Source: Lysinibacillus sp. 2017 (GTDB lineage: Bacteria; Bacillota; Bacilli; Bacillales_A; Planococcaceae). From it: 64,000 nucleotides of DNA. Position numbers and translations under genes: made by a program. How positions within the stretch are numbered: the first letter of the stretch is position 1; every line of letters begins with the position of its first letter. Of this stretch, positions 21,506 through 32,032 are shown one piece after another. The stretch is from contig NZ_CP029002.1 in NCBI RefSeq assembly GCF_003073375.1, positions 1,722,001-1,786,000 on the forward strand. Direction: 5' to 3'. The notes below the pieces were generated by a model. That model was not told the DNA's origin and made no database searches. It saw only the letters and a list, made by a program, of their open reading frames with translations.

Positions 21506-21532
21506 TAACGGGTTCGGATATTGGAAAGAAAA
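21506..21532 (+). repeat. Left terminal inverted repeat of cassette A
   Basis: Starts TAACGGGTTCGG and ends GAAAA; it differs from the complement of the right repeat at 5 of 27 positions. Confidence 0.8.
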
Positions 21533-21557
21533 CAGTAACATATCCTTTGACACACGT

Positions 21558-21593
21558 TTAGCAAGACCGCATAAATTTATGTGGTCTTGCTAA
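21558..21593. repeat. 36-bp palindrome in the left arm of cassette A
   Basis: Two 18-base arms with no spacer, complementary except for one G-U type pair, centred on CATAAATTTATG. Cassette B has the same core and a degraded version of the flanks. Confidence 0.85.
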
Positions 21594-21691
21594 TTTAGTG
21601 TTAAAACTGATGCGAATTGACAAACTTATTTTTAAAAGGTTAATAGGTAATTTATGTTAAAATGTTACTTTAACAACAGAGGGGGTAAGTA

Positions 21692-22248
21692 ATGAGAAAG
21701 ATATTTATTGGGGTAGCAATAATAACGATAATTTTAACTGTATTTCTAATATTTAATCACAAACAACTGCCCACTAAAGATGATGTATTTAAAATCACAA
21801 ACAACTGGTCTCCAACAACAGAGGAAGTCTATTTAGTGAGAAAAATAGACGGGGAGTGGTTAACCATTTTTAGAAATACTCATTCAATTATGATTGCTAG
21901 GTTAGAGCAAAACTGGTTGGGTTATTGGGAGATGATACTGGAAGCGAAGCTACATTAGCTGGTACTTATTATCCACCAGTGCAAGACGAGGAATTTAATT
22001 GGAGTGCAGGTTCAAGGGGAAATACATCACACTACTTTGGTCAAATTATCAATCCTACTATTAAGAAAATAGAAGTCGAAATACAGCGAAATTTCTTTGA
22101 AGATGCGTTGATAATTAGTTCAGGAAAAGCTCATTTTTTCTTTGCTAAAGTCGATGGGGAGTTAGTAATGCCTGCAAATATTAGGGGATTTTCTGAAAAT
22201 GGAGAGTTAATTTATTCTACAATTAAACCAACGAAAAAGATTGATTGA
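21692..22248 (+). pseudogene. Passenger gene of cassette A, frameshifted membrane-anchored protein
   Basis: Two overlapping frames form one protein of about 185 residues. The first part starts with GGGGG 7 bases before the ATG, has an N-terminal membrane helix (IFIGVAIITIILTVFLIF) and continues to about 21925 (IARLEQNWLGYW). The second frame continues as GDDTGSEATLAGTYYPPVQD to ISSGKAHFFFAKVDGELVMP and the end. The frames differ as expected from a single-base deletion in the G/T-rich stretch 21905-21930. Family not recognised. Alternatively two short genes are meant, but the second has no ribosome site. Confidence 0.65.
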
Positions 22249-22302
22249 TAGTAGTTTTTCAACTAACAAGGGCGCTTAATCAAGCACTGTAAATTATACG
22301 AA

Positions 22303-22332
22303 AAACGCTCAGATATACATATCTGAGCGTTT
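22303..22332 (+). terminator. Terminator-like hairpin inside cassette A
   Basis: A perfect 14-bp stem AAACGCTCAGATAT and complement with a 2-nt loop. The same CGCTCAG stem follows the passenger of cassette B, at the same distance from the right end. Confidence 0.8.
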
Positions 22333-22408
22333 GCAATTTCCATTTATAAGTTCAAATCAATGTTAAATTGTATGCTAATGGGGTTGTTATTTACATTGCA
22401 TTTTTAGT

Positions 22409-22435
22409 TTTTCTCCCCATCAACCGAACCCGTTA
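22409..22435 (-). repeat. Right terminal inverted repeat of cassette A
   Basis: Begins TTTTCTCCCCATCAAC and ends CCCGTTA. Its complement is identical to the left repeat of cassette B at 26 of 27 positions. Confidence 0.85.
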
Positions 22436-29666: not shown

Positions 29667-30371
29667 ATGGTGGCGACTATGGCAACAAAGAAGAAAAAAC
29701 CGCTTTTATCACCAAATGCAAAAATCTTTTTAATTTTATTGTTAATACCTATCGCATTAATGATTTATATTTTTGCCTTTTTTAGTTGGCAGCAAATTAA
29801 AGGTTTGCCGTTTTTTGATGAATTTACTGAAAAGTCGGTATATCAGCAGATTCAAGAACAATTTGATTTAGAAATTCCGATTGAATACATACCTGTATAT
29901 GTATCAGCAGAGCAAAAGTATGGTGTACCTTGGACATTACTGGCTGCACATCACCGAGTAGAAACGCGCTTTTCATCATTAAAAAAATTAGAGTCTCCCG
30001 TTGGTGCAGAAGGGCATATGCAATTTATGCCGTGCACATTTGTCGGTTGGAAACACCCATCTTGTAAAGGGCTAGGACAAGGAGAAATCACCGAAAAAGA
30101 AAAAACAAATCCAGCAGTTATCCAAAAATATGGTGGCTATGGTGTCGATGCGAATGGAGACGGTGTAGCGGATCCTTATGACATCGAGGATGCAGTATAT
30201 AGTGCGGCTAATTTTTTGTCTAGGGCTGGTGTAAAAGAAGGCCAAATTCAAAAAGCCGTCTTCCAATATAATCATAGTAAGAAATATGTTCAAGATATTC
30301 TGCATTATTATAATTTATATACCGACTACGGCGATCAGCTTAAGCAACTTGCATTAGAAGAGGCCAAATAA
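29667..30371 (+). CDS. Membrane-anchored lytic transglycosylase
   Basis: A 234-residue lysozyme-fold protein with one N-terminal membrane helix (KIFLILLLIPIALMIYIFAF). The catalytic segment is LLAAHHRVETRFSSLKK, with Glu as general acid, then GAEGHMQFMPCTFVGW (the G-x-MQ-x-MP motif) and NGDGVADPYDIEDAVYSAAN. It cleaves peptidoglycan. The start may instead be ATG 29679, which has GGTGG before it. Its natural terminator, a hairpin shared with the convergent glsB-like gene, is split by cassette B beginning 20 bases after the stop. Confidence 0.85.
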   Translation: MVATMATKKKKPLLSPNAKIFLILLLIPIALMIYIFAFFSWQQIKGLPFFDEFTEKSVYQQIQEQFDLEIPIEYIPVYVSAEQKYGVPWTLLAAHHRVETRFSSLKKLESPVGAEGHMQFMPCTFVGWKHPSCKGLGQGEITEKEKTNPAVIQKYGGYGVDANGDGVADPYDIEDAVYSAANFLSRAGVKEGQIQKAVFQYNHSKKYVQDILHYYNLYTDYGDQLKQLALEEAK

Positions 30372-30390
30372 AAAAGTGTGACAGTAAAAT
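30371..30390. terminator. Left half of a terminator split by cassette B
   Basis: AAAAAGTGTGAC plus the loop AGTAAAAT. Its partner arm GTCACACTTTT starts at 31759, 1.37 kb away. Without the cassette the two arms form an 11-bp stem with an 8-nt loop between convergent genes. Confidence 0.85.
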
Positions 30391-30417
30391 TAACTGGTTC
30401 GGTTGATGGGGAGAAAA
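30391..30417 (+). repeat. Left terminal inverted repeat of cassette B
   Basis: Begins TAACTGGTTCGGTTGATGGG, ending GAGAAAA; complementary to the right repeat at 24 of 27 positions. Confidence 0.88.
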
Positions 30418-30437
30418 CATTAAATAACAAACTAATT

Positions 30438-30476
30438 GGGGACACAATTCACACATGAATTGGTGTCCCTCTTTTT
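30438..30476 (+). terminator. Terminator inside the left arm of cassette B
   Basis: GGGACAC / GTGTCCC outer stem and AATTC / GAATT inner stem with one bulged G, followed by TCTTTTTG. It could replace the host terminator that the insertion splits. Confidence 0.8.
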
Positions 30477-30550
30477 GTTGTTATATCGGCACTTAAGGTA
30501 ATTTAGCACCCAAATTAGCACATCAATTAGCGTACACTTTGAAGAGACCA

Positions 30551-30562
30551 CATAAATTTATG
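30551..30562. repeat. CATAAATTTATG core shared with cassette A
   Basis: The 12-bp palindrome recurs in both cassettes 122-141 bp before the passenger start. Flanks here (AGACCA / GAGGTGTT) are degraded relative to cassette A. Confidence 0.75.
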
Positions 30563-30691
30563 AGGTGTTGTTAAACTCTATGTCAAAACGGGTGTTAATT
30601 GTTCGCATAATATCAAATTGAATTCTTTCTTCTAAAAGGAAAATGGAAAATTTATGCTAAAATGAATATGTAATCGAAGGGAGATGATTTA

Positions 30692-31594
30692 TTGCAAGAA
30701 AACATAATGACTTTATCTGACGGTAGAAAATTAGGTTTTTCGGTCTATGGTGACAAAAAAGGTCTGCCACTTTTTTTATTTCACGGCACTCCAGGTTCGA
30801 GAATTTGGTTTTTAGAAGATGATAAAATAGCACACAGATTGGGGTTCTACTTAATAGCTACTGACCGACCTGGTTATGGTTTATCAGATAAAAAAGTTAA
30901 TCGTGAAATTATCGAATACTCATCAGATATCGAAGAGCTTGCTGATTATTTACAATTGGATGAATTCTCCGTTTTAGGTGTTTCAGGGGGAGGCGCTTAT
31001 GCGACGGCTGTTTCGCACTGTTTACCAGATAAGGTAAAACTATGTATCCTTGTTTCAACAGCCACGCCTTTCGTAGATGGTAAACCTTCTAAAGCTATGT
31101 CAAAAGAAAATCGCTTAGCATTTTTCCTTACTAATTACTTTCCGTGGTTACTAAGATTAGCTAACAATTCTCAAAAGAAAATGATTGATAAAAACCCAGA
31201 AAAATATAAAGCAACATTAAAAAAAGGCGGCAGTCATTTGTCAGAATGGGACAATAAAATGCTATTAGATGAAGAAGTGTTAGAAAATGGAGTTATTCAT
31301 TCTAAAGAGGCATATCGACAAGGAGTAGATGAAGTTATATACGAATCTAAATTACTAACAAAAGATTGGGGCTTTAAATTAGAGGAGATTAAAACTCCCA
31401 TAAAAATATGGCATGGTGAAGATGATACTTTATCTCCTATTAATGAAGTAAAGGTTATGGCGAAAAAGTTATTAAATACCGAATCACATTACATCGAAAA
31501 TGGTGGGCATTTTCTAACCGAAAACGACGAATTATGGGAATCGATACTAACAAATATCATGGAATATTTTAATCAGGTTGTTCCGATTAAATAA
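30692..31594 (+). CDS. Alpha/beta-hydrolase, passenger of cassette B
   Basis: A 300-residue soluble hydrolase. Oxyanion loop FHGTPGSR, nucleophile elbow GVSGGGAY (Ser), acid Asp in WHGEDDTLSPINEV and His in ENGGHFLTENDE give a complete triad. The start is TTG with GGGAG 9 bases upstream. It is the only gene in the cassette, with promoter region and terminator supplied by the element's arms. The frame is intact. Substrate unknown; proteins of this type include esterases, haloperoxidase-like and detoxifying enzymes. Confidence 0.87.
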   Translation: MQENIMTLSDGRKLGFSVYGDKKGLPLFLFHGTPGSRIWFLEDDKIAHRLGFYLIATDRPGYGLSDKKVNREIIEYSSDIEELADYLQLDEFSVLGVSGGGAYATAVSHCLPDKVKLCILVSTATPFVDGKPSKAMSKENRLAFFLTNYFPWLLRLANNSQKKMIDKNPEKYKATLKKGGSHLSEWDNKMLLDEEVLENGVIHSKEAYRQGVDEVIYESKLLTKDWGFKLEEIKTPIKIWHGEDDTLSPINEVKVMAKKLLNTESHYIENGGHFLTENDELWESILTNIMEYFNQVVPIK

Positions 31595-31616
31595 TATAGT
31601 TTTTCATACTCCGTTA

Positions 31617-31647
31617 AAAAACGCTCAGATTTTTTCTGAGCGTTTTT
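31617..31647 (+). terminator. Terminator of the cassette B passenger
   Basis: AAAAACGCTCAGA / TCTGAGCGTTTTT stem with a T-rich loop and tail. The same CGCTCAG stem is in cassette A. Confidence 0.9.
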
Positions 31648-31722
31648 ACTTTCCCATTCATAATGCCAATTTGCTGTTGGAATATATGCTAATTAGTTTG
31701 ATATTTACATTGTTATTAGTGT

Positions 31723-31749
31723 TTTTCTCCCCATCAACTGAACTCGTTA
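31723..31749 (-). repeat. Right terminal inverted repeat of cassette B
   Basis: Begins TTTTCTCCCCATCAACTG and ends CTCGTTA, abutting the right copy of the 9-bp duplication. Confidence 0.88.
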
Positions 31750-31774
31750 CAGTAAAATGTCACACTTTTATTTA

Positions 31775-32032
31775 TTAAGTAGCTTTACGCATTGATTTTA
31801 AAATGAAGCTTACTACAAAAATTAAAACGATGGCACCGATTAAAGCTGGGAATACGTAGAAGTCAGAAACTTTCCAACCCCAATCACCTAAAATCATACT
31901 ACCAATCCAAGAACCAATGATACCAGCAATAATATTACCAATAACTCCTCCTGGAATATCCTTACCTAAAACAACGCCTGCTAACCATCCTAAAATTCCC
32001 CCGATGATTAAAAACCAGATAAAACTTATCAT
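31775..32032 (-). CDS. GlsB/YeaQ/YmgE-family stress membrane protein
   Basis: An 85-residue protein of three membrane helices with the family's Gly-rich pattern (FLIIGGILGWLAGVVLGKDI, GVIGNIIAGIIGSWIGSMIL, PALIGAIVLIFVVSFIL). Members are induced by stress in many bacteria; molecular role unknown. AAAGGAGAG is 9 bases before the ATG. Its terminator side is the arm displaced by cassette B. Confidence 0.9.
   Translation of the reverse strand: MISFIWFLIIGGILGWLAGVVLGKDIPGGVIGNIIAGIIGSWIGSMILGDWGWKVSDFYVFPALIGAIVLIFVVSFILKSMRKAT

Follow-up and report, generated by a model that had tools for sequence, protein, structure and literature searches.

A transposase-free passenger cassette with ends of the Tn7491 transposon group at a putative terminator loop in Lysinibacillus sp. 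2017

The DNA analysed here is a 64,000-nt stretch of Lysinibacillus sp. 2017 (contig NZ_CP029002.1, positions 1,722,001 to 1,786,000; hereafter the window), in which a segment that we call cassette B lies between two convergent host genes (Table 1). Cassette B spans window positions 30391-31749, 1359 bp between two copies of an exact 9-bp duplication, CAGTAAAAT, and its 27-bp terminal inverted repeats (TIRs), TAACTGGTTCGGTTGATGGGGAGAAAA and TAACGAGTTCAGTTGATGGGGAGAAAA, match at 24/27 positions. It is the sole pair in the whole window that combines an exact 9-bp duplication with inverted ends matching at ≥20/27 positions, 300-3000 bp apart; the same scan on 20 first-order Markov shuffles returned 0 pairs. 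When 10 transposases from the parent group described below were used as tblastn queries (E up to 1e-4), none matched within cassette B. These results confirm an earlier, sequence-only reading of this DNA, which had described the segment, its TIRs and its perfect duplication, and had seen in it one alpha/beta-hydrolase gene and nothing resembling a transposase. A homologue of the hydrolase (E up to 1e-40) is present in 1/260 other genomes, at 60% identity, and no element was found around it (locus L204; here and below, L numbers denote loci and G numbers genomes).

An inverted repeat, AAAAGTGTGACA / TGTCACACTTTT, flanks cassette B, a feature absent from the sequence-only reading. These flanks form a two-way intrinsic terminator between the convergent genes, opened in its loop, with the 9-bp duplicated bases being the loop region of the hairpin. 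The upstream host gene was matched in 15/15 other genomes of the genus, in G162 as separate pieces. In 9/15 of these sister loci the same stem is intact, and behind it comes a short motif from the 3′ end of the downstream gene; in 3/15 the motif follows a different sequence, and in 3/15 neither stem nor motif was found. Altogether, the motif, by which alone the downstream gene was recognised in sister loci, lies 3′ of the same upstream gene in 12/15. The nine loci with an intact stem are empty sites.

Table 1. Features of cassette B, its insertion site and a second cassette (window coordinates)
Feature	Position	Strand	Remarks
Cassette A, second member in the window, 930 bp	21506..22435	+	duplication imperfect (7/9); hairpin, 8/9 flank pairs; locus L030
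Upstream host gene, 234 aa	29667..30371	+	terminator split by the insertion
Left half of host terminator	30372..30390	.	includes CAGTAAAAT at 30382-30390; stem intact in 9/15 sister loci
Left TIR	30391..30417	+	27 bp; weaker similarity on to 30435
Leader hairpin GGGGACAC..GTGTCCC, then U-rich run	30438..30470	+	terminator-like, faces transcription entering from the left; fold -17.8 kcal/mol, z -3.3
Near-palindrome ACCACATAAATTTATGAGGT, leader-conserved	30547..30566	.	possible operator; RNA not unusually stable (z -0.33)
Passenger alpha/beta hydrolase, 300 aa	30692..31594	+	TTG start, ATG at codon 6; PF00561, E 1.8e-16
Two-way terminator-like hairpin AAAAACGCTCAGA/TCTGAGCGTTTTT	31617..31647	.	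fold -18.7 kcal/mol, z -6.7
Right TIR	31723..31749	-	27-bp inverted repeat
Second CAGTAAAAT and right half of split terminator	31750..31769	.	CAGTAAAAT at 31750-31758
Downstream convergent host gene, 85 aa	31775..32032	-	

The sequence-only reading could not assign the ends, leader and terminator of cassette B; we were able to match them to transposase-bearing elements of the Tn7491 group. Such elements have leaders and right ends that can be aligned to cassette B's own; one of them, L041 (in G174), has the same ends, leader and terminator together with an exact duplication. L041 has genes for a 98-aa protein and one passenger, and its transposase is broken into two frames of 81 and 564 aa; in its intact relatives, the transposase is a single frame of ~650 aa. 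The leader hairpin also occurs in the transposase-bearing L041, L060 and L090 and is missing from cassette A, and this left hairpin is kept in most, not all, of 12 aligned rows. The right-hand hairpin is kept in most of 12 aligned right ends, L096 being without it. An Rfam scan of cassette B gave a single, sub-threshold match. Cassette B thus shares with the transposase-bearing members of the Tn7491/ISSsu9 group homologous ends, leader and right end as well as the 9-bp target duplication, and it is not an autonomous member, having no ~650-aa transposase of its own. It is best classed with the passenger cassettes of the Tn7491 group, as a real non-autonomous transposon: we consider it quite probable that a hydrolase gene between the group's ends was moved in trans into a terminator loop.

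The group takes its name from Tn7491, the dfrG transposon first seen inside Tn6198 (the abstract spells it Tn4791), for which a 9-bp duplication is published (PMC10763498, excerpts). The end given there equals the end of L110 and L112, and the duplication is also 9 bp; we therefore identify the dfrG element in our set as Tn7491. Its transposase is 57.5% identical to that of L090, placing it in the same transposase group as cassette B's relatives, and like them it has a small open reading frame (ORF), a transposase gene, a passenger, ends starting TAA..GTTC and a 9-bp duplication. Unlike cassette B, Tn7491 carries a transposase and dfrG, whereas cassette B carries the hydrolase only and has different inner end bases (GGTTGATGGGGAG). 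ISSsu9 has been linked to dfrG (PMC8343405, excerpts) and is listed under the IS1595 family (PMC11366657, excerpts). To IS1595-family transposases other than ISSsu9, the likeness seen in our group is the shared IS1/IS1595 zinc domain alone, below cut-off.

No Pfam family matched the group transposase above cut-off. Weak similarity to IS1/IS256-type zinc ribbons was found (NF033558, NF050000, NF048018), and for the IS1 model NF033558 member 1 scored 29.2 bits against a cut-off of 100, which leaves it outside the IS1 family. IS1 makes a 9-bp duplication, and IS1 and IS256 transposases resemble those of the group in the zinc ribbon; the group's proteins have ~650 aa and fall below the curated cut-offs (member 1). 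A sequence search of the PDB gave 0 matches. A first AlphaFold model from 10 sequences was poor (pLDDT, the predicted local distance difference test, 54.7) and was set aside. For the model used, Foldseek returned four matches at E ≤ 0.001, led by Tn5 by E-value, and the best VIA-align match was ISCth4, which we take to be a member of the IS256 family. The modelled structure shows a predicted DDE-like fold, and D281, D428 and E582 are predicted as candidate catalytic residues. The small proteins of 98 and 93 aa had no Pfam match at E ≤ 0.01, and the 98-aa protein had none in NCBIfam; a ribbon-helix-helix label considered for them was backed by no search result.

The sequence-only reading had likened cassette B to the mobile insertion cassettes of IS231 (MIC231), in which passenger genes lie between insertion sequence (IS) ends and a helper acts in trans. 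The layout is alike, with passengers and no transposase between IS ends, and this part of the idea, a passenger between borrowed ends, stands. A CCCATCAAC-like string presumably occurs in both end types. As far as tested, the ends are those of the Tn7491 (dfrG) group and not of IS231, and the elements that bear both these ends and a transposase encode the zinc-ribbon protein just described, with no Pfam family above cut-off. We also take MIC231 to differ from cassette B in ends, transposase and duplication length. We see next to no likelihood that cassette B is an IS231-type cassette with IS4-family ends.

Transposase matches were found in 41/261 genomes of the family, many of them fragmentary. 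Across 84,980 species genomes, relatives of the transposase are encoded in 125 candidate stretches; of the 80 kept, 79 are titled Bacillota and one Chryseobacterium, and the transposon group is found widely in Bacillota. The end motif (≤3 mismatches) occurs in 70/261 family genomes, the window's own included, often as inverted pairs, and the reversed control gave 0 among the matches listed. The sequence-only reading had proposed looking for recurring end pairs in Planococcaceae, for empty sites in sister strains and for an IS with the same ends and a transposase; recurring pairs, empty sites in sister species and transposase-encoding transposons with the same ends were all found. In a first pass, in which a locus contributed a single pair, no element was counted twice and one mismatch was allowed from 9 bp up, 16/25 end pairs had a duplication of 8-10 bp. 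A second pass took in 72 loci, some of them overlapping, and yielded 24 distinct elements, 12 with an exact duplication and 22 with ≤1 mismatch; since this pass selected pairs for duplications with ≤2 mismatches, its duplication rate is not independent, and same-size words taken 20-40 bp further out matched in 0/72. Twenty of these 22 elements gave no transposase match, and in 17 of the 22 at least 7/9 flank bases are paired.

Cassette A has the same ends, the right part and part of the leader, with a different passenger whose frame is split into two ORFs. Passengers across the set mostly resemble small membrane proteins or lipoproteins as judged by eye; of eight scanned, two have a Pfam match at E ≤ 0.01, which in one case falls short of the family's cut-off. 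We note that L085 holds, at 503-2926, two elements with different end types side by side, with cacttacac repeats flanking each. In the window's own genome, a transposase remnant and a left end occur in the same locus (L076, G000:C1:23720-27136), and a right end lies at G000:C1:1852085-1852109, with no left partner seen within 8 kb.

Inverted ends with an exact 9-bp duplication were found at 47 of the 80 loci kept from the wider collection; the other 33 gave no pair. Four of the 47 were dropped as spurious (L118, L126, L140, L161) before flank pairing was assessed, leaving 43. At least 7/9 flank bases are paired at 37/43 elements compared to 141/860 places drawn at random from those loci, and at least 8/9 at 29/43 compared to 27/860. 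The mean flank folding energy is -19.1 kcal/mol at elements and -8.2 kcal/mol at random places. By eye, most element flanks have A-runs before the stem and T-runs after it, as in intrinsic terminators. Sequence and predicted pairing thus show a preference of the group for hairpins.

The Tn7491 copies themselves fit this pattern. Where dfrG-transposon copies (L224, L225, L227-L232) are flanked by an exact duplication, the site is a hairpin in most cases. Of eight Tn7491-type copies with an exact duplication, six have ≥7/9 flank pairs, L112 having 5 and L227 having 6; among the eight, L062 and L110 are one record, and L228 and L230 apparently represent one target in two orientations. There are three further dfrG copies without an exact duplication and one locus showing one end only. 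By tblastn, the transposase matches 112 plasmid records (90 in Enterococcus, 9 in Staphylococcus, 4 in Lactococcus and 3 in Listeria, with single records in Pontibacillus, Niallia and four Gram-negative genera), with ≥80% of its length covered in 96, and three phage records, two nearly full length. dfrG is the neighbour at 8/9 places opened, the Pontibacillus place lacking it; six of the eight dfrG places were picked by identity to the end of the dfrG element.

Insertion into hairpins, including several confirmed terminators, is described for IS1272/TnSha1 of the IS1182 family, which deletes part of the stem through blunt cuts and leaves no duplication (PMC4923244, PMC5678879, excerpts). Unlike those insertions, the cassette B site keeps both arms and has a perfect 9-bp duplication, so that cassette B is not an IS1272-type insertion. 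The word "terminator" has 0 occurrences in PMC10763498. No published account of terminator-loop targeting by the Tn7491 group was found in the literature searched, which largely lacked subscription papers and was available in part (PMC5678879, PMC4923244, PMC9024848, PMC10763498, PMC12540322, PMC8343405, PMC9101827, PMC11366657, PMC9208149). As far as these searches reach, the terminator-loop targeting, the many passenger cassettes and the overlap with integron-like arrays (below) are new.

In the mechanism that we propose, a group transposase supplied in trans would bind the ~25-bp ends and make staggered cuts 9 bp apart, a geometry suggested by the duplication, and the element would be joined into an intrinsic terminator, within its loop region. 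Insertion would split the host hairpin, and the element's own terminator-like hairpins inside both ends would stand in for it. These hairpins could stop transcription from either neighbour and so replace the terminator; because they lie just inside both ends, the neighbouring genes probably still end properly, and the insertion is probably harmless to them.

That cassette B moved in trans is inferred, and a competing account is that it arrived complete with a transposase, lost the small ORF and transposase gene in place and never moved in trans. Transposase-bearing elements do carry passengers beside the transposase gene, which is internally deleted in L072 and reduced to 45 residues in L029/L056. 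Against this, cassette B has no transposase match at all, 20/22 elements are transposase-less, and one transposase-less cassette stands at two unrelated sites. In G162, an internally deleted transposase gene adjoins a 146-aa passenger gene, and a near-identical passenger without the transposase gene makes up a cassette of 1063 bp in two species (G164 and G163), where the copies are 98.6% identical; the element alone is common to the two sites, and its duplication is exact in one and has one mismatch in the other. The simplest reading is that the transposase gene was lost first and movement in trans followed. We regard loss in place as unlikely for cassette B.

Several observations weigh against a cassette of the Tn7491 group moved in trans into a terminator loop, and loss of the transposase gene in place could be counted with them. 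Movement itself was not observed. No full helper transposase was found in the window's own genome, which has three partial matches with a longest open frame of 168 aa. Nine of the 25 distinct end pairs of the first pass lack a duplication, 5/22 elements of the second pass have fewer than 7/9 flank pairs, and 6/43 elements of the wider set, likewise below 7/9, have no recognisable hairpin. A consensus terminator scan of 30300-31900 found 0 sites, which we ascribe to the scan's rule on T-run position; folding was used instead.

Repeats around AACTAACGG..TTAGTT are found in multi-gene elements of the group. Such sites also form integron-like arrays between many small accessory genes, with strand counts of 89/1 over 140 kb of G199 (L188-L194, G199:C2:1-140000), 15/0 in a stretch of G200 (L195-L196, G200:C3) and 20/0 in a stretch of G220 (L197-L198, G220:C2). 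Cassette-sized blocks are common to elements and to arrays of other species, and in seven pairs inspected the block edges lie mostly at or near sites, one partner being without readable sequence. In L040 (1332-5162) and L049 (1036-3843), from two species, the outer genes are common and the middle differs, with both changes at such sites. We note that a group II intron match lies within the array at L189 9935-10019.

A Xer-like tyrosine recombinase (L048:2226-3074; L193, L245-L254) is shared, at about 91-94% identity, by many genomes from several genera, and the L048 protein has matches in 66/261 genomes, relatives at ~60-65% included. Of twelve loci inspected, the ten that hold close copies (L245-L254) contain 1-16 sites each, all on the strand opposite the recombinase, and of the two ~65% relatives L255 has no site and L256 has one, on the same strand. 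The recombinase scores 219 bits against a cut-off of 220 for the XerA/integron-integrase model and 88 against 265 for TIGR02249. Over 109 array sites, the arms showed no co-variation (5.055/7 pairs compared to 4.976 when redealt, standard deviation 0.077, maximum 5.239), and a selected hairpin at these sites is therefore not supported. One complete integron and a few clusters of attC sites lacking integron-integrases (CALIN) are reported across the Firmicutes (PMC9024848, excerpts), and the integron-like arrays may partly be known already.

These arrays raise the question of whether cassette B is itself one of their gene cassettes, its inverted ends incidental, given that several group elements contain array sites and share cassettes with arrays. 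Cassette B has no array-type site, and neither has the window by the motif test, in which classical attC was not modelled; cassette B has the transposon's ends, leader and duplication. We consider this origin highly improbable. We keep the array link as a lead, and tentatively, at somewhat less than even confidence, see a Gram-positive parallel to mobile integrons, in which loop-targeting transposons would carry and move array-drawn genes, singly or several at a time, with cassette B and Tn7491 as products.

These findings suggest that genes could enter genomes with little damage, the target being an intergenic structure where insertion should harm least, and the element seems to bring replacement terminators with it. 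They assign the vehicle of dfrG, a known trimethoprim-resistance gene, to a transposon group that is broad within the Bacillota and has a definable, unusually clear target rule; this insertion rule is directly testable. In the genomes sampled, the group's transposase-free passenger cassettes are common. The array link is relevant to the way in which mobile gene sets are put together in Gram-positive bacteria; if it is true, cassette B would be a pared-down, trans-mobilised product of a gene-capture economy of the Planococcaceae.
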